In this document: piece by piece, positions 10,426 through 42,641 of the stretch | How the letters are laid out: every line of letters begins with the position of its first letter | How positions within the stretch are numbered: the stretch's first letter is position 1 | Assembly (NCBI GenBank): GCA_900457075.1 | Contig: UGYN01000002.1 | Location: 434,001 to 498,000 of the forward strand | Length of the DNA stretch: 64,000 bases | Direction of reading: 5' to 3' | From: Serratia quinivorans | GTDB lineage: Bacteria > Pseudomonadota > Gammaproteobacteria > Enterobacterales > Enterobacteriaceae | Position numbers and translations under genes: made by a program | The notes under the pieces: generated by a model | What the model was told of the DNA's origin: nothing | The model's input: only the letters and a program-made list of their open reading frames with translations | The model's database searches: none

Positions 10426-12075
10426 ATGTTTTGTGTGCAATGTGAACAAACTATCCGTACCCCGGCAGGCAACGGCTGCTCTTATGCCCAGGGTATGTGC
10501 GGCAAAACGGCGGAAACCTCCGACCTGCAGGACCTGTTAGTTGCGGCGTTACAGGGGCTTTCCGCCTGGGCGCTGCAAGCCAGGGCGCTCGGGATCGTCG
10601 ATCATGATATTGACAGCTTCGCCCCACGAGCTTTCTTCTCTACCCTGACCAACGTCAACTTCGATTCAGATCGCATTATCGGTTACGCACGCGAAACCAT
10701 CGCCCTGCGCGAATCTCTGGCCACCCGTTGCCGTCTGCTGGACGCCAGCGTCCATGTCGAACACCCATTGGCCAGTCTGCAGCTGGCCGGCGATGATATG
10801 TCTTCGCTGCTACAGCAGGCCGCGCAGTTTGCCCTCAATACCGATAAAGCCGAGGTCGGCGACGACGTACACGGCCTGCGCATGCTGTGCCTGTACGGCC
10901 TGAAAGGCGCCGCGGCCTATATGGAGCACGCTCACGTACTGGGCCAGTCCGATGACCAGATCTACACCGACTACCACGCCTTTATGGCCTGGCTCGGCAC
11001 CCAGCCGCGCGACGTGGATACCCTGCTGAACAACGCCATGGGTATCGGCAAAATGAACTTCAACGTGATGGCGATCCTCGATCACGGCGAAACTCAGGCT
11101 TACGGCGATCCGGTGCCAAGTGCGGTGAACGTGCGTCCGGTGGCAGGCAAAGCCATTCTGATCTCCGGCCATGATCTGAAAGATCTGCGCATGTTACTCG
11201 AGCAAACCGAAGGCCAGGGCGTGAACGTTTACACCCACGGTGAAATGCTGCCGGCGCACGGCTACCCGGAACTGAAAAAATTCAAGCATCTGGTGGGCAA
11301 CTACGGCAGCGGCTGGCAGAACCAGCAGACCGAGTTCGCCAAATTCCCCGGCCCGATCCTGATGACCTCTAACTGCATTATCGATCCCAATGTCGGTAAC
11401 TATGGCGATCGAATCTGGACGCGCAGCATCGTCGGCTGGCCGGGCGTCAACCATCTGGAAGGGGACGATTTCAGCCAGGTGATCGTTCAGGCGCAGAGCA
11501 TGAGTGGTTTCCCCTATAGCGAAATCGAACATATGATCACCGTCGGCTTCGGCCGCCAGACGCTGCTCAACGCCGCCGATACGGTGATCGACCTGGTGGC
11601 GCAAAAGAAACTGCGTCACGTCTTTTTGGTCGGCGGCTGTGACGGTAGCCGCGATGAGCGCAGCTATTTCACCGACTTCGCCCGCAGCGTTCCACAAGAC
11701 TGCCTGATCATGACGCTGGCCTGCGGCAAATACCGCTTCAACAAACTGGATTTCGGTACCCTGGAAGGCTTGCCACGTCTGTTGGACGTCGGTCAGTGTA
11801 ACGACGCCTATTCCGCCATCATGCTGGCGGTCAAACTCGCCGACACCCTCGGTTGCTCGGTCAACGAACTGCCACTGAGCCTGGTGCTGTCGTGGTTTGA
11901 GCAAAAGGCGATTGTCATCCTGCTGACGCTGTTGTCATTGGGGGTTAAAAACATTGTTACCGGGCCAACCGCGCCGGGCTTCCTGACCGACAACCTGATG
12001 GCGATCCTCAACGACAAGTTCGGCATGCGTCCGATCACCACCGTTGAGCAGGATCTGCAAGCCCTTCTCGGCTGA
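10426..12075 (+). CDS. hcp: Hybrid cluster protein / hydroxylamine reductase Hcp
   Basis: Cytoplasmic iron-sulfur-oxygen cluster enzyme of 549 aa. It acts as a high-affinity NO reductase and protein S-nitrosylase and can reduce hydroxylamine. The N-terminal cysteines follow C-x2-C-x11-C-x6-C (residues 3, 6, 18, 25), the spacing of enterobacterial [2Fe-2S] Hcp. Later hybrid-cluster segments such as [15 protein letters not shown] and LACGKYRFN are present. The ATG at 10426 has AAGGAAG just upstream; an earlier in-frame ATG at 10378 was rejected because it would lie upstream of the NsrR-like site. Co-directional with hcr after a 53-nt gap. Confidence 0.96.
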
Positions 12076-13133: not shown

Positions 13134-13263
13134 TGCTTTCTGCCCCGTCGGCCACGATGGGGCATTTATCGGCAAGCAGGCTTTACCTTCCCCTTCTACA
13201 CTTTCCCGGTTCCATGTTCGTTACTGCGTTATTTGAGAAAGACTGATAAGTCATACCCAATAG

Positions 13264-13306
13264 ATTTCAAGTCACGGCCAGGCGGCACACGCTGTGGTTT
13301 GAAAGA
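13264..13306 (+). repeat. Dispersed palindromic repeat, copy upstream of poxB
   Basis: ATTTCAAGTCACGGC is followed, after a short loop, by the near-complement GCTGTGGTTTGAAAG, giving a long hairpin 32 nt before the poxB start. The outer arms and following GAT-AAGGG-like tail resemble the copy at 15099-15137. It looks like a small dispersed element whose 3' edge sits in the leader of the next gene. Confidence 0.65.
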
Positions 13307-13337
13307 TAAAGGGACCTTTACAACGCTTGGGGGAATT

Positions 13338-15060
13338 ATGAAGCAAACTATAGCCACACTGATCGCCAAAACTCTGGAACAGGCCGGTGTGAAACGCATT
13401 TGGGGCGTCACCGGTGATTCGCTCAACGGCCTCAGCGACAGCCTGCACCGTATGGGCACCATCGAATGGCTGGGAACCCGCCATGAAGAGGTCGCCGCCT
13501 TCGCCGCCGGAGCAGAAGCCCAGTTGACCGGTCAGTTGGCGGTCTGTGCCGGCTCCTGCGGCCCCCGGTAACCTGCATCTGATTAACGGTCTGTTCGACT
13601 GCCACCGCAATCATGTGCCGGTGTTGGCGATTGCCGCACACATTCCCTCCAGCGAGATCGGCAGTGGCTATTTCCAGGAAACCCACCCGCAAGAACTGTT
13701 TCGCGAATGCAGCCACTACTGTGAACTGGTCTCTAACCCGGAACAGTTGCCCCGGGTACTGGAAATCGCCATGCGCAAGGCGATCCTCAATCGCGGCGTG
13801 TCGGTGATCGTCCTGCCGGGCGACGTGGCGCTGCGGATGGCACCGGAAGACGCCAGCATGGTGTGGCACACCCCGGCACTGCCGCTGGTGCAACCGCCAA
13901 TGAGCGAACTGAACAGGCTGGCGGAGACCCTGAACAAGGCGAAGAACATTACGCTGATGTGCGGCAGTGGTTGTGCAGGCTCCCATGACGAAGTGGTCAA
14001 GTTGGCCGAACTGTTGCAGGCTCCGGTGGTTCATGCACTGCGCGGTAAAGAGCATATCGAATGGGACAACCCCTACAGCGTCGGCATGACCGGGCTGATC
14101 GGTTTCTCTTCCGGCTACCACGCCATGATGAACGCCGATACGCTGGTATTGCTCGGTACCCAGTTCCCGTACCGTGCCTTCTATCCGACCAATGCCAATA
14201 TCATTCAGATCGACATCAACCCCGGCAGCATCGGCGCACACTGCCCGGTCAATATGGCGCTGGTGGGGGATATCCATACCACCCTCACTGCCCTGCTGCC
14301 GCAGTTGGAACCCAAGAGCGACCGTGCGTTCCTCGACAAGGCGCTGGAGCACTACCGCACTGCGCGCAAGGATCTCGACGGGCTGGCGACGGCCAATGAC
14401 GATCAGCCGATTCACCCGCAGTACCTGGCGCAACAGCTCAGCCGGTACGCCAGCGATGACGCTATCTTCACCTGTGACGTCGGTACGCCCACCGTTTGGG
14501 CCGCACGTTATCTGAAGATGAACGGCAAACGCCGCCTGCTCGGGTCGTTCAATCATGGCTCGATGGCGAACGCCATGCCACAGGCGATTGGCGCACAGGC
14601 CACCGAACCGGGCAAACAGGTGATCGCCATGTGCGGCGACGGCGGCTTCACCATGTTGATGGGGGATTTCCTGTCGCTGGCCCAACTGAAACTGCCGGTC
14701 AAGATTGTGATTTTCAACAACAGCGTACTGGGCTTCGTGGCGATGGAAATGAAGGCCGGTGGCTACCTGACTGACGGCACCGATCTGCACAATCCTGATT
14801 TTGCGGCCATTGCCAACGCCGCCGGCATCAAAGGCATTCGCGTAGAGAAAGCTTCTGATTTGGATGGGGCGCTGCAGGAAATGCTGGCGCATCCCGGCCC
14901 GGCACTGCTGGACGTCGTCACCGCCAAACAGGAACTGGCGATGCCGCCGCAGATCAAATTCGAGCAGGCCAAGGGCTTTAGCCTGTATATGCTGCGCGCC
15001 ATTATCAACGGCCGCGGTGACGAAGTGGTCGAGCTGGCAAAAACCAACTGGTTGCGTTAA
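13338..15060 (+). pseudogene. poxB: Pyruvate dehydrogenase (quinone) PoxB, single frameshift
   Basis: Peripheral-membrane ThDP/FAD flavoenzyme that oxidises pyruvate to acetate and CO2 with ubiquinone in stationary phase. The first 75 codons ([20 protein letters not shown] onward) run to a stop at 13569. The rest of the protein continues in another frame from [14 protein letters not shown] to the stop at 15060. The break is one extra C in a C-run at about 13560-13566: GGC CCC GGT AAC is expected and one more C is present. With it removed the product is about 573 aa, the normal length. The ThDP motif [17 protein letters not shown] is intact, so sequencing error is as likely as inactivation. 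Confidence 0.9.
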
Positions 15061-38201: not shown

Positions 38202-38420
38202 ATTTCTTCAAGTTATTACTTTAGTCTATCAAAACCTACGTATTTTTAAAAAAATCTTTTAAATTCAATCAAGTGAAATGTCACTTAAATCCACAGCGAG
38301 ATCCAAAAACTGAAAATTACTGAAATCTGTTTCAATCTTTTTGTAAGTATCCCTGTAATCCGCACCATTCACTTTTAGAGATCTTCCGACATACTGATTA
38401 TGTCACCTGAGGAGATCGCT

Positions 38421-38686
38421 ATGCGTAAGATCCGATTCACCGAGCACCAGATCATCGCCGTCCTGAAATCAGTCGAGGCTGGCAGGACCGTCAAAGATGT
38501 CTGTCGCGAGGCCGCTATTTCCGAAGCCAGCTACTACAACTGGAAAGCGAAATATGGCGGCATGGAAGCCGCTGATATCAAAAAATCAAAGATCTTGAGG
38601 ACGAGAATCGTCGTCTGAAGCAGATGTTTGCCGATCTGAGTCTGGAATGCCGGGCGCTGAAAGACGTCATCGAAAAAAAGCTTTAA
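38421..38686 (+). pseudogene. IS3-family transposase OrfA, frameshifted
   Basis: Helix-turn-helix (HTH_8 type) subunit: RKIRFTEHQIIAVLKSVEAG and CREAAISEASYYNWKAKYGG. The expected run of seven A in the codons for KK-I is only six at about 38580-38585. The frame therefore slips to a stop near 38618 instead of reading the leucine-zipper-like part (DLEDENRRLKQMFADL) to the TAA at 38684. An A-AAA-AAG slippery heptamer for programmed -1 frameshifting remains at about 38673-38680. Confidence 0.82.
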
Positions 38687-38717
38687 ACCAGCGATAAAGC
38701 GTGAGCTTGTCAACTAT

Positions 38718-39530
38718 TTGACCGCGCAGTTTACGATGAGCATACACCAGGCATGCAGGACGTTATCGCTGAGCAGGACGGTGTTTCGTTATCAACCGGA
38801 TATGCGACGTGATGAACCGCTGATCCAGAGGCTGACTGAGGCGGCTGAGCGCTATCCCCGCTACGGATTTAAGAAGCTTTTTCAGGTGCTGCGCAGGCAG
38901 GGTCACGTCTGGAACCACAAGCGGGTACACCGGATTTACTGTCTGCTGAAACTGAATTTTCGGCGTAAGGGTAAACAACGTCTGCCGGTGCGTAATCCGG
39001 CTCCACTGGCAACGCCGGAAGCGCTCAATCAGAGTTGGTCTATCGATTTTATGCACGACGCGCTGGTGTGCGGTCGACGTTTTCGAACCTTCAACGTCGT
39101 GGATGATTTTAACCGCGAGGCTTTGGCCATCGAAATTGACCTGAGTATCCCTGCACAGCGGGTCGTCCGGGTGCTGGACAGGATTGTGGCAAACCGTGGA
39201 TATCCGCTGAAAATGCGGATGGATAATGGGCCGGAACTGATATCACTGGCTTTGGCGCAATGGGCTGAAGACCATGGTGTGATGCTGGAATTTATTAAGC
39301 CGGGTAAGCCAACGCAGAACGCATTTATCGAACGGTTTAACCGAACTTACCGGACAGAAATACTGGATTTTTACCTGTTCAGAACGCTGAAAGAAGCACG
39401 GGAAATTACGGAACGCTGGCTGAATGAATACAACAGTGAGCGACCCCATGAATCCCTGGATAACCTGACACCGGAAGAGTACCGGCTGATGGCTGAGAAA
39501 CCGGAAATCTCAAAAAGTGCGTGGAACTAA
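38718..39530 (+). CDS. IS3-family transposase OrfB (DDE integrase domain)
   Basis: Catalytic part of the transposase, 270 aa from the first ATG; homology begins about 30 nt earlier (KRELVNYL). The HTH_21 region YPRYGFKKLFQVLRRQG is followed by the rve core. DDE residues are in WSIDFMHD, MRMDNGPEL and NAFIERFNRTYR. One A appears to be missing at the orfA/orfB junction (TTTAAACC where TTTAAAACC is expected), which puts the normal fusion out of frame. Confidence 0.88.
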   Translation: MTAQFTMSIHQACRTLSLSRTVFRYQPDMRRDEPLIQRLTEAAERYPRYGFKKLFQVLRRQGHVWNHKRVHRIYCLLKLNFRRKGKQRLPVRNPAPLATPEALNQSWSIDFMHDALVCGRRFRTFNVVDDFNREALAIEIDLSIPAQRVVRVLDRIVANRGYPLKMRMDNGPELISLALAQWAEDHGVMLEFIKPGKPTQNAFIERFNRTYRTEILDFYLFRTLKEAREITERWLNEYNSERPHESLDNLTPEEYRLMAEKPEISKSAWN

Positions 39531-39546
39531 AGCTGGGATACTTACA

Positions 39547-39729
39547 GTGCCGCCGCAAATGATCGGGGTTATTCCTGACAACTCCGGCGGATTTGGGGAT
39601 GTGAGGAAAACCGCGCAGGTGTTTGTACGTAATGAATTAACGCAGTTACAAGAGCGCATGAAGGAGGTTAACGAGTGGATTGGTGAAGAGGTGATCCGTT
39701 TATCTAAATATGAATTACCCACCGAATAA
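39547..39729 (+). pseudogene. C-terminal remnant of a P2-like phage portal protein (gpQ)
   Basis: Directly after the IS end, an open frame encodes VPPQMIGVIPDNSGGFGDV, then RKTAQVFVRNELTQLQERM and KEVNEWIGEEVIRL. This is the C-terminus of PBSX/P2-type portal proteins, where a PP-x-M-x-G-x-x-P-x-N-x-GGFGD segment and VFVRNEL..LQ are typical. Only about 60 of some 340 residues remain; the rest is absent, cut off by the IS. The identification is from memory of the family and not a search. Confidence 0.7.
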
Positions 39730-39736
39730 TAACTAT

Positions 39737-39773
39737 AAAAAAACCTAACAACCCGCACTCACGGGTTATTAGG
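39737..39773 (-). terminator. Terminator of the oxygenase gene
   Basis: On the minus strand the stem CCTAATAACCCG / CGGGTTGTTAGG with loop TGAGTG is followed by six or more T. It lies 15 nt past the oxygenase stop and may also end the portal stub in the other direction. Confidence 0.88.
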
Positions 39774-39787
39774 TGAAAAAATAAAAA

Positions 39788-40492
39788 TCAAGCATACTCA
39801 TGTTCATGGAAGAACATTGGATCTCCGTTGCTCTCCCCTATTGTTGTTAATATAGGTTGCAATTCATCACGAGTACACCCAAACTGCCAACAAACAAGAA
39901 TTCGTTTATCATTTAGATGTGCCTTATATGATTGCGTTCTATGTATAGTATCTGTACCATCAAAAAGAATTGCCTCACCTTCTTTATACTTATGTACAGT
40001 TGAAAGCTCATCATAGTTATCATAATCGTCACGATGAGCTGATGTCGTCTCTAAACCGCCGAAGTATGGCTGAAAAGGGAATAAGGGAGTAAGTAACGTA
40101 CCACTCTCATTCCCCTCCAATCCTTCATGATAGAAGTCAGAATGCCACCGTCCTGTTGGATAGCTACCAATCGTCTCAATAATATTTGCTTGCACAACTC
40201 GCATAGTTCCTCTGTCATTTCCGATGATATCTCTACTAAGCGCAAGCTCACAACCATCTAGAACATCACGAAAAATCTTCAAAGCGCCTGGTGACTTTGC
40301 AAAATACCATCTCATACTAACAGAGTTAAACTCCTCACTATAATCCTCATGTGCTTTGATGCCAATATCCACTGAAGGATCTAAAGAATCCCTAAGTATA
40401 TCTAAATATAACTCTCTTATAGGCTCAAGGGCATCAAATGAAAAAGCCAATTTTGTTACACCATTAGTTAGAAATTCACTTTTTTTTGACAT
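39788..40492 (-). CDS. 2-oxoglutarate/Fe(II)-dependent oxygenase of the repeat-peptide operon
   Basis: Protein of 234 aa with the facial-triad pattern of non-heme iron oxygenases: H117-x-D119 in RWHSDFYHEG, distal H184 in DGTDTIHRTQSY, and R197 (NDKRILVCWQF) 13 residues later, placed to bind the 2-oxoglutarate carboxylate. The sequence between is compatible with a double-stranded beta-helix (GEAILFDGTDTIH). No signal peptide or membrane helix. AAGGAT precedes the ATG. It is the last gene of a minus-strand operon behind the MAAETKPAR repeat gene. I infer that it hydroxylates or otherwise oxidises that peptide (Lys, Pro or Met are candidates), but a small-molecule substrate cannot be excluded. 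Strongly AT-rich codon use marks foreign origin. Confidence 0.82.
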   Translation of the reverse strand: MSKKSEFLTNGVTKLAFSFDALEPIRELYLDILRDSLDPSVDIGIKAHEDYSEEFNSVSMRWYFAKSPGALKIFRDVLDGCELALSRDIIGNDRGTMRVVQANIIETIGSYPTGRWHSDFYHEGLEGNESGTLLTPLFPFQPYFGGLETTSAHRDDYDNYDELSTVHKYKEGEAILFDGTDTIHRTQSYKAHLNDKRILVCWQFGCTRDELQPILTTIGESNGDPMFFHEHEYA

Positions 40493-40507
40493 GATTCATC
40501 CTTATTA

Positions 40508-40532
40508 AAGGCTCTTAGTACTTAAGAGCCTT
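40508..40532 (-). promoter_or_regulatory. Intercistronic hairpin between repeat gene and oxygenase
   Basis: AAGGCTCTTA/TAAGAGCCTT, a perfect 10-bp stem with a 5-nt loop, lies in the 55-nt gap between the precursor stop and the oxygenase start. No T-run follows in the transcribed direction, so it should attenuate or stabilise rather than fully terminate. Such stems between precursor and enzyme genes are common in ribosomal-peptide operons. Confidence 0.7.
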
Positions 40533-40547
40533 GTCATGGTTATTAGC

Positions 40548-41297
40548 TTACGCAAACGCCATATTATAACGAACTTCCGCCGCCATACGGCTGGCTTGGT
40601 TTCCGCCGCCATGCGGGCTGGCTTGGTTTCCGCTGCCATACGCGCTGGCTTGGTTTCCGCTGCCATACGCGCTGGCTTGGTTTCCGCCGCCATACGGGCT
40701 GGCTTGGTTTCCGCCGCCATGCGAGCTGGCTTGGTTTCCGCTGCCATGCGAGCTGGCTTGGGTTTCCGCTGCCATGCGAGCTGGCTTGGTTTCCGCTGCC
40801 ATGCGGGCTGGCTTGGTTTCCGCTGCCATGCGGGCTGGCTTGGTTTCCGCCGCCATGCGGGCTGGCTTGGTTTCCGCCGCCATGCGGGCTGGCTTGGTTT
40901 CCGCTGCCATACGCGCTGGCTTGGTTTCCGCTGCCATACGTGCTGGCTTGGTTTCCGCTGCCATACGCGCTGGCTTGGTTTCCGCTGCCATACGGGCTGG
41001 CTTGGTTTCCGCTGCCATACGGGCTGGCTTGGTTTCCGCTGCCATACGGGCTGGCTTGGTTTCCGCTGCCATACGGGCTGGCTTGGTTTCCGCTGCCATA
41101 CGCGCTGGCTTGGTTTCCGCTGCCATACGGGCTGGCTTGGTTTCCGCTGCCATACGCGCTGGCTTGGTTTCCGCTGCCATACGCGCTGGCTTGGTTTCCG
41201 CTGCCATACGCGCTGGCTTGGTTTCCGCTGCCATACGCGCTGGCTTGGTTTCTGCTGCTAAACGATTTTTTTTACCCACAATGCTTACATTTTGCAT
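40548..41297 (-). CDS. Tandem-repeat protein, 25 x MAAETKPAR; candidate multicore precursor peptide
   Basis: Open frame of 249 aa: a 12-residue head MQNVSIVGKKNR, a first unit LAAETKPAR, repeated MAAETKPAR units and a tail MAAEVRYNMAFA. AAGGA lies 9 nt upstream of the ATG. In the current read, one extra G near 40759-40761 and one missing base near 40588-40590 shift about six units into a second frame (QASxxGxGN units). The two changes compensate, so head and tail share one frame and the gene stays open. With both corrected, all units read MAAETKPAR. The unit is hydrophilic, with Lys and Arg as possible protease sites and no Cys, Ser or aromatic residue. There is no recognisable leader peptide or signal sequence. 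Neighbours are an MFS exporter upstream and a 2OG oxygenase downstream on the same strand. No known protein family is recognised. Confidence 0.75.
   Translation of the reverse strand: MQNVSIVGKKNRLAAETKPARMAAETKPARMAAETKPARMAAETKPARMAAETKPARMAAETKPARMAAETKPARMAAETKPARMAAETKPARMAAETKPARMAAETKPARMAAETKPARMAAETKPARMAAETKPARMAAETKPARMAAETKPARMAAETKPARMAAETKPARMAAETQASSHGSGNQASSHGGGNQASPYGGGNQASAYGSGNQASAYGSGNQASPHGGGNQASRMAAEVRYNMAFA
40587..41261 (-). repeat. 25 tandem 27-bp repeats
   Basis: Twenty-five copies of a 27-bp unit (each contains GGCTTGG on the plus strand) with no spacers. On the minus strand the unit encodes M-A-A-E-T-K-P-A-R. Differences between units fall at third codon positions: the Ala before Arg uses GCG, GCC, GCT and GCA; Arg uses CGT or CGC; the first Ala uses GCA or GCG. 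The first unit has Leu (TTA) in place of Met. The block is markedly GC-richer than the AT-rich genes on both sides. Confidence 0.92.
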
Positions 41298-41398
41298 TTT
41301 ATCTGTCCTTAATAATGATTATTAATGCTAATAGTGCCTATGCACTCCTACGAACAATGCCCAATATAAATTTAGGCATTGAATTTATGACTACCCAA

Positions 41399-42641
41399 TT
41401 ATTTCTTATAAATAACCTTAGCAGTAAAATAGGTTGCAAGAACAATCGAAGCAATCGCAAAACAGAAAAGATAACTTGAAGATAAACTATAAAGATATGT
41501 ACCCATTGCAGGCCCTAAAACATACCCAAATGCAGAAGCACCAAAAAGAAAACCTGCAACGCCACTTTGCTCATCATTACTCACAGCCAATGATGCTGCT
41601 GACTGAATAGATGGAATCAGCATTCCAAACCCCACCCCCAGCAATCCTGAAGAAGCATTTATAACCATTGAATAATGATATGGGAAAATCATCCCCAAAA
41701 AACCCAACACACATGCAGAAGAACCAAAAAATAAGAAGTGCCTTAGCAGATGGTTTAAATATTTGAATGTAAACCAACTGAGTAAACACCATCGAAACAG
41801 CCATTATTGAAATAGTAATCCCGGTTTTAGCCACAGCTCTTGCCGGATCCAATGAAAATAGGTCCTGAATATAAAATGATATGGTTTGCTGGAAAGATGA
41901 AAAGGCTATGTAAGTTAAGGCGATCCCTATAAACACAGGAAGTACTCTTCCATCATTTATTCTGATGGTTTTATTTTCTTTCATCGACGCACTTACAGAT
42001 TCTACTTTATCTTTAGAAAGTACAAAAAAGCCCAATATGGTCCCAATAAAAGAAATCACTGCAGCCACATATATTGGCAATAACAGTGAGAATGAACCTA
42101 ATGACGAACCTAATAAAGGACCAATTATCGATCCAATACCATATGCGGACGCAATAAGTGCCATCCCCGCCCCACGTTCCTTTCTATTTGTACTTTCCGC
42201 AATATAGGTCATCGCCGAAGGATGAATTCCTGCTGTTAACGCTCCTGTTAAACATCTAACAAACAATAAAGACAAAAATGCTGCAGTGATAGAAAGGTAA
42301 TGACTCAAACTAATCTTTAAAACCAAAGCTAAAACCAACGTTCCTATCGTATAGAATATCATTCCAGCCAAGTAAGAATTCCTGCTCCCGAATGTTCTAA
42401 TTAGCTTTCCCCACATACCTGAGCACAGTGTTATAACTAATGCTGCAATTGTAACAATCATTCCAACACTAAACTCAGTCAAACCAATCTCTCTGCTCGC
42501 TGGCCCGAGGATGGTATAGAGTAATGTTTGCCCGATACCCACGCATACTAACCCTATAATTAGAGTTATATGATGCATTAGCTCTGGATTTGATTTGTTT
42601 TCTGATACATTAGCATCTGCTTGAGTCATCGATGTCAGCAT
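41399..42641 (-). pseudogene. MFS transporter of the repeat-peptide operon, one frameshift
   Basis: Major facilitator of about 410 aa with some twelve hydrophobic helices, probably an exporter of the drug:H+ antiporter type. The N-terminal part runs from 42641 or, more probably, 42629 (MTQADANVSENKS). It includes GMWGKLIRTFGSRNSYLAG in the loop 2-3 (motif A-like) region and GIHPSAMTYIAESTNRKERG in the central part. At about 41727-41732 a T-run one base short (on the minus strand) moves the reading frame. The C-terminal four helices continue in the next frame (MLGFLGMIFPYHYSM to the stop at 41399). Likely an intact gene with a homopolymer error. First gene of the operon; 101 nt separate it from the repeat gene. 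Confidence 0.82.

Follow-up and report, generated by a model that had tools for sequence, protein, structure and literature searches.

A stretch of 64,000 nucleotides from Serratia quinivorans (assembly GCA_900457075.1, contig UGYN01000002.1, positions 434,001-498,000 of the forward strand), here called the window, carries on its minus strand a cassette of three genes: a Major Facilitator Superfamily (MFS) exporter, a tandem-repeat open reading frame (ORF) and a putative Fe(II)/2-oxoglutarate (2OG) oxygenase. A first-pass annotation of this DNA had described these genes in this order, closed by a strong terminator, as a candidate multicore peptide system. The window ORFs agree with that order, and the oxygenase is indeed followed by a strong hairpin (stem 39743-39774) and a U-run, the folded stretch having a z-score of -4.9 against dinucleotide shuffles. 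The features are listed below in window coordinates.

41577..42641, minus strand: N-terminal ORF of the MFS exporter (MFS_1, 5.3e-33); the frame changes at about 41700-41745 and the end is out of frame
41399..41710, minus strand: C-terminal ORF of the MFS exporter, in a different frame (MFS_1, 5.4e-07, under the curated cut-off)
40548..41297, minus strand: repeat (putative precursor) ORF, with a 12-residue start, 18 in-frame nonapeptides, a frame-shifted part and a return to frame
40575..41258, minus strand: 27-nt tandem array of 25.3 copies, unit MAAETKPAR (Tandem Repeats Finder, 96% matches; 23 regular units)
40760..40762, minus strand: G-run inside the sole 28-nt unit, the point of frame loss (reading of the sequence)
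40589..40590, minus strand: short G-run in the last unit, the point of frame return (reading of the sequence)
40507..40532, minus strand: stem-loop separating the repeat gene and the oxygenase (z -3.2; present at five of five loci)
39788..40492, minus strand: predicted Fe(II)/2OG oxygenase, 234 aa (catalytic residues, confident structure model, fold matches)
39743..39774, minus strand: predicted terminator hairpin downstream of the oxygenase (folding)
39517..39729, plus strand: remnant of a P2-like portal protein, gpQ, C-terminal 60 residues, facing the cassette (phrog_68, 2.1e-18; 77% over 60 residues to a Yersinia phage portal)

Homologues were sought with the oxygenase alone as query. In a collection of 5.8 billion proteins, 33 relatives were found by protein search and 56 by profile search, each at E 0.001; the profile search scored 3670 candidates and its reach was limited to shared words. 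Genome samples, a contig scan and a viral-contig scan yielded five loci in all, none of which was dropped: the window itself; Pseudomonas sp. RIT288 (L002); a viral-contig record (L005) whose oxygenase is identical over 231 residues to that of Photobacterium kishitanii (P0022); a locus (L007, from G826) with an oxygenase identical to that of Pseudomonas syringae (P0016); and a locus (L013, from G1688) with an oxygenase identical over 234 residues to that of Vibrio gazogenes (P0019). The repeat array lies directly upstream of the oxygenase at all five, and an MFS gene precedes the array at all four loci that can be read that far, the L002 contig beginning inside the array; the pairing of oxygenase homologues with repeat ORFs that the first-pass annotation had predicted is therefore found wherever a neighbourhood has been read. 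The oxygenase, the exporter and the unit type group alike, with the window and Pseudomonas (AAETK) on one side and Photobacterium and Vibrio (AAEVK) on the other, which is to be expected of one inherited cassette. When the search was reversed, a degenerate DNA pattern of two tandem units matched a single record among the viral contigs, the same L005 prophage record, and a one-unit pattern matched the window's genome 23 times, always in this array (reversed control, 0).

The oxygenase family appears to be rare. In genome samples it was present in 1 of 148 relatives, 1 of 369 members of the class, 1 of 394 of the order and 1 of 392 of the family, each time only in the window's own genome; it occurred in 2 of 398 genomes of the genus of L002, L002 included, and in 1 of 260 from the family of G132. 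These samples overlap and were drawn from larger groups, and the best first-look candidates were scored in each (for example, 7 of 14 in G000). The oxygenase had no plasmid match, nor had its relative P0018, and it had no phage match; viral scans with P0018, P0010 and P0027 found no relative, and the operon DNA had no match in Escherichia coli genomes at the megablast level. Three Streptomyces plasmid records that did match the operon DNA were rejected, their repeat being a different, PHGTATPAS-like one. The open-access PMC literature contained no paper on the cassette that we could find, nor the string AAETKPA, which is weak evidence of absence.

In the window the repeat ORF starts at an ATG at 41297 with 12 residues of its own and continues into LAAETKPAR and MAAETKPAR units; the remaining three rows of the repeat scan are arrays with 2.1-3.4 copies. 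The earlier count of 25 head-to-tail nonapeptides stands as a number of copies, although these do not form one clean frame, since 18 regular units are in frame 0, five are in frame 1 and two are interrupted. Across the five loci the consensus unit is xAAE[T/V]K[P/L]A[R/K], with a period of 27 nt, and arrays comprise 25 units in the window, 3 in L005, 10 in L007, 17 in L013 and 11 visible in L002. Among 64 regular units, A2, A3, E4, K6 and A8 are invariant, while position 5 is T in 43, V in 20 and A in 1, position 7 is P in 60 and L in 4, and position 9 is R in 43 and K in 21; these counts come from a unit-picking pattern that itself fixed or limited positions 2-9, and degenerate units at the array ends are uncounted. 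Units recur every 27 nt throughout the other four arrays, and likewise in the window except at its two interrupted units, so that no inside unit was skipped other than those two. Leucine stands at position 7 in 4 of the 10 P. syringae units, which makes Pro7 unlikely as a single obligatory target.

Where units differ, they do so mostly at the third position of a codon, which accounts for 25 of 26 minor bases in the window, 17 of 17 in L002, 4 of 5 in L005, 22 of 35 in L007 and 4 of 4 in L013; no P value is attached to these counts because copies within one array are not independent. This pattern argues that the peptide itself is under selection and, together with a unit common to all five loci, points to a ribosomally encoded precursor of the kind from which ribosomally synthesized and post-translationally modified peptides (RiPPs) are made. 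The same co-occurrence and third-position bias rule out a chance array, and the plus-strand ORFs that overlap the array (40536-41261 and 40774-41325) are disfavoured, as the other genera keep the minus-strand peptide. A single-sequence structure model of the first 19 window units gave short helices and no confident global fold (predicted local distance difference test, pLDDT, 73; predicted template modelling score, pTM, 0.22), which speaks neither for nor against a role as an uncut polymer. Among Pfam profiles the repeat ORF matched DUF6470 with 47.6 bits, which exceeds the cut-off of 28.9, Plasmodium_HRP with 42.9 bits, short of the required 45.8, and RAP1; in NCBIfam it matched YdhT, L23 and GAPDH, all far under cut-off. 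We took all six for matches to repetition or composition.

The window oxygenase is an open frame and has the HxD...H...R pattern noted in the first-pass annotation, as H117, D119, H184 and R197. Numbered without the Met, the facial triad and 2OG-binding Arg (H116, D118, H183, R196; the role of each assigned by analogy) are invariant in a 34-row alignment and kept at all five loci, and the ratio of nonsynonymous to synonymous change (pN/pS) is 0.17-0.44 in all 10 pairs of the five loci. Matches to 2OG folds span the whole length of the structure model (pLDDT 93.7), so that residues and fold alike place the protein in the Fe(II)/2OG superfamily, and it is confidently modelled as a PhyH/proline-hydroxylase-like enzyme. 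Its fold matches include AsqJ, H11, SnoN, EctD and human PHYH, at 10-17% identity among the matches listed, none of which is known to act on this peptide. Sequence profiles recover little of this: no Pfam family matched at E 0.1 (CD45 at 0.29 only, with the cut-offs of TauD and 2OG-FeII_Oxy_3 not reached), no NCBIfam model matched above cut-off, and the best hits of a PDB sequence search (E 0.37 and 0.082) were both unrelated proteins. The TauD profile matched 9 of the 34 family members, with a best E of 0.005.

The exporter's assignment comes from the MFS_1 match of its N-terminal ORF, and transport is presumed to be outward. The window protein has Tet and multidrug-type relatives; the other three exporters were assigned by alignment to it, and the MFS proteins of the four loci share 29-41% identity in local alignments. 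Between the repeat gene and the oxygenase, a stem-loop recurs at all five loci (z -3.2 in the window, -2.1 in L002, -5.8 in L005, -2.9 in L007 and -5.6 in L013), followed by a U-run in L007 and, less clearly, in L002; this would fit a leaky terminator that keeps the precursor above the enzyme.

The surroundings of the cassette suggest that it behaves as a mobile accessory cassette. Its end in the window abuts the plus-strand ORF at 39517-39729, the last 60 residues of which are the C-terminus of the P2-like portal gpQ; in the Yersinia phage, the genes that lie beyond gpQ, as far as gpA, are convergent with it. The cos-proximal region between gpA and gpQ is a hotspot in P2-like phages of E. coli for many anti-phage systems and other cargo, as described in sections of PMC9122126. 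The window arrangement resembles that hotspot, and the Yersinia phage, in having a small cargo cassette adjoining and convergent with gpQ, and differs in retaining only the 60-residue remnant; on the gpA side beyond the cassette, inspection of six frames by eye revealed no gpA remnant, and one stretch of 33 aa had no phage match. An IS3-family element at 38400-39530 (transposase ORF 38718-39530) abuts the gpQ remnant. The Photobacterium copy lies in a prophage record, between a pair formed by a tail protein and an integrase and a second integrase. The same prophage also carries a weakly LmuA-like protein (L005:3065-4048; PADLOC E 4.1e-4) and, downstream of the oxygenase, a TylF-type methyltransferase (L005:7147-7872). 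In P. syringae the cassette is flanked by two 100% identical direct repeats of 210 bp (L007:7740-7949 and 11030-11239), which correspond to the 3' end of a xylR-like gene, as though the cassette had been inserted along with a second copy of that gene end, and in V. gazogenes (L013:11871-13856) it neighbours a CRISPR-like array with a 61-nt period and a Cas1 gene.

We judge it moderately probable that these parts constitute a mobile, leaderless multicore modified-peptide cassette, in which a polyprotein is modified by the oxygenase, cut and exported. The middle gene, as its sequence indicates, would supply a polyprotein in which 3 to about 25 almost identical nonapeptides follow one another. 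The oxygenase would most likely hydroxylate one fixed residue in each unit; E4 or K6 would be the favoured site, as both are invariant and have reactive side chains. A host peptidase might then separate the units at basic residue 9, and the MFS protein would pump out a peptide of roughly 1 kDa, as for microcin C, while the stem-loop after the repeat gene would keep the precursor message more abundant than that of the enzyme. That the cassette is patchily distributed and linked to prophages suggests a peptide used in competition, or some comparable accessory trait. We would class the product with modified ribosomal peptides and do not file it as a proven RiPP. The structural claim of the first-pass annotation is thus partly confirmed: it was right in outline, and is stronger than first thought through the co-occurrence at five of five loci, although two genes are broken in the window copy. 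To it are added the window frameshifts, the remnant of a P2-like prophage and the stem-loop that parts the array from the oxygenase.

Several observations weigh against this scheme. Sequence and models establish the co-occurrence, the reading frame and the classes of enzyme and exporter; an action of the oxygenase on the repeat is deduced from gene position alone, and modification, cleavage and export, likewise unobserved, are still inference, as they were in the first-pass annotation. Neither a peptidase nor a recognition domain could be identified in the cassette, no dedicated search for a RiPP recognition element having been made; leaders and such elements are common in RiPP clusters but not universal. 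The segments N-terminal to the units, 4-22 aa at the four readable loci, are dissimilar by eye, and the C-terminal tails differ also. A protein search with the repeat scored 8000 candidates and returned none at E 0.001, of which the low-complexity query may be the cause. Neighbourhoods were read at five loci, and those of most of the 56 family members, for example in Pantoea, Paraburkholderia, V. cholerae and Shewanella, are unread. In the window the array and the MFS gene are both frame-shifted, the readable relatives being open. Finally, we know of no MFS pump that exports long polypeptides, so that an uncut product would not fit.

Two characterized bacterial systems offer partial precedents. 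Microcin C is a formylated heptapeptide that is modified and expelled by MccC, an MFS pump in one passage of PMC7680869 and an ABC exporter in a table there. On that account it is the nearest working precedent, being a very short ribosomal peptide that is modified and pumped out, but it is a single heptapeptide ending as an aspartyl-adenylate mimic, whereas the cassette encodes a 2OG oxygenase together with a polyprotein of tandem units. An immunity enzyme could not be recognised among its genes, nor could an adenylating enzyme of the MccB type among the ORFs listed for four loci, where neighbouring ORFs were profile-scanned only in part. PflC and PosC, from Pseudomonas RiPP pathways, are described in PMC12636437 as alpha-ketoglutarate-dependent HEXXH enzymes that hydroxylate the peptide and oxidatively cleave the backbone at Ala within an Ala-Arg-Met-Asp motif at the C-terminus. 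The cassette enzyme is likewise predicted to depend on 2OG, and its units meet at Pro-Ala-Arg-Met-Ala, or P-A-[R/K]-x generally, with an invariant Ala before the basic residue. By analogy, the oxygenase could be both tailor and cutter, oxidising the alpha-carbon of Ala8 before [Arg/Lys]9 and so breaking the chain in every unit without a peptidase. A leaderless polyprotein would then yield numerous copies of one peptide, amidated at the C-terminus and bearing a keto-acyl group at the N-terminus, made by a self-contained and partly phage-carried factory of polyprotein, oxidative chopper and pump. Such cutting would account for the lack of a recognised peptidase, but we regard it as a long shot: PflC and PosC belong to an HEXXH family and act with a nitrile-hydratase-type leader, where the cassette enzyme has HxD...H...R, and the word 'repeat' is absent from the main text of PMC12636437. 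As the enzyme families differ, the precedent serves as a lead only.

Among eukaryotes, the fungal dikaritin (ustiloxin) RiPPs are also multicore, with tandem short cores cut at basic sites and oxidative tailoring; they differ in relying on eukaryotic secretion, Kex2-type processing and unrelated oxidases.

Other functions would use the same genes differently. The repeat protein might remain uncut inside the cell, as a flexible, basic, low-complexity polymer that is modified by the oxygenase and binds nucleic acid, metal or another partner, with the MFS gene serving a separate purpose. The lack of a peptidase in the cassette, a polymer-like range of unit number (3 to about 25), a net charge of +1 per unit and a resemblance to KPAA-type basic repeats would all suit such a role, which we nevertheless think unlikely, given that the MFS gene is retained at four of four readable loci, three units suffice in Photobacterium, and it is the exact unit that is held and not mere composition. 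Quite unlikely, in our estimate, is a peptide that acts as a scaffold or store: a single residue of the chain, probably Lys6, would be oxidised, and complete digestion would then free a modified amino acid or very short peptide, which the MFS protein would export to serve as an antimetabolite or signal. The small-molecule substrates of the exporter's Tet and multidrug-type relatives and the invariance of K6 in 64 units are consistent with this, but five held positions (A2, A3, E4, K6, A8) exceed what a single modified residue needs, even if recognition by the enzyme could also hold them.

The prophage connection raises a further role, in anti-phage defence or some other aspect of prophage fitness, for which the repeat protein or peptide, once modified, would work within the lysogen and not be exported. 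The window copy abuts the gpQ remnant, on a side of the hotspot that holds anti-phage systems in P2-like phages of E. coli, and the Photobacterium copy is within a prophage record; yet the hotspot, as PMC9122126 describes it in the sections cited, holds other cargo too, no phage gene was seen among the ORFs read near the P. syringae copy, and an exporter would be odd in a defence system. The PADLOC library of 2023 returned no family at E 0.01 for the oxygenase, the window's N-terminal MFS ORF or the three relatives' MFS proteins. We hold this role to be very improbable indeed. Whatever the cassette does elsewhere, the locus in the window strain may itself be decaying and inactive, as the frame breaks in the array and the MFS gene would indicate. 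We find this somewhat doubtful, because the breaks occur at G-runs and near an A-run, with poxB also split, as in an indel-prone assembly, and the window oxygenase is open with its four catalytic residues intact.

Should the leaderless multicore scheme be correct, the cassette would represent a minimal bacterial route to many modified nonapeptides from one gene, with no classical leader, recognition domain or dedicated peptidase, and one that moves between genera partly with prophages. It would offer a clean test case for core recognition by a 2OG oxygenase in the absence of a leader, and would point to exported peptides of one class in an enterobacterium as well as in Pseudomonas, Vibrio and Photobacterium. 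Such a class would escape profile-based mining, since no Pfam or NCBIfam model matches the oxygenase above cut-off and the repeat resembles low complexity.

The frame breaks of the window copy can be placed closely. In the array, the 28-nt unit at the G-run 40760-40762 shifts the frame and a short unit at 40589-40590 restores it for the last residues. The exporter gene of the first-pass annotation is upheld by its MFS_1 match and position, but it is split: residues 5-303 of 41577-42641 align with residues 1-299 of the L005 exporter at 36% identity, and 41399-41710 aligns with residues 307-400. Assembly error is a plausible cause, given the G-runs, the A-run near the exporter break and the similar state of poxB. 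That gene is split between two frames (13233-13571 and 13546-15060), while clpA is open to the window edge and potF and potG match their models over full length; gene splits were sought only where ORF starts looked odd.

The composition of the window array also differs from that of its neighbours, with a guanine-cytosine content of 64% against 38% for the oxygenase and MFS genes. Six of its seven core codons are the consensus codons of the Pseudomonas array in L002 (L002:1-300), while most synonymous sites have diverged between the oxygenases (pS 0.80-0.87). Either the array has moved separately or its codons are constrained.

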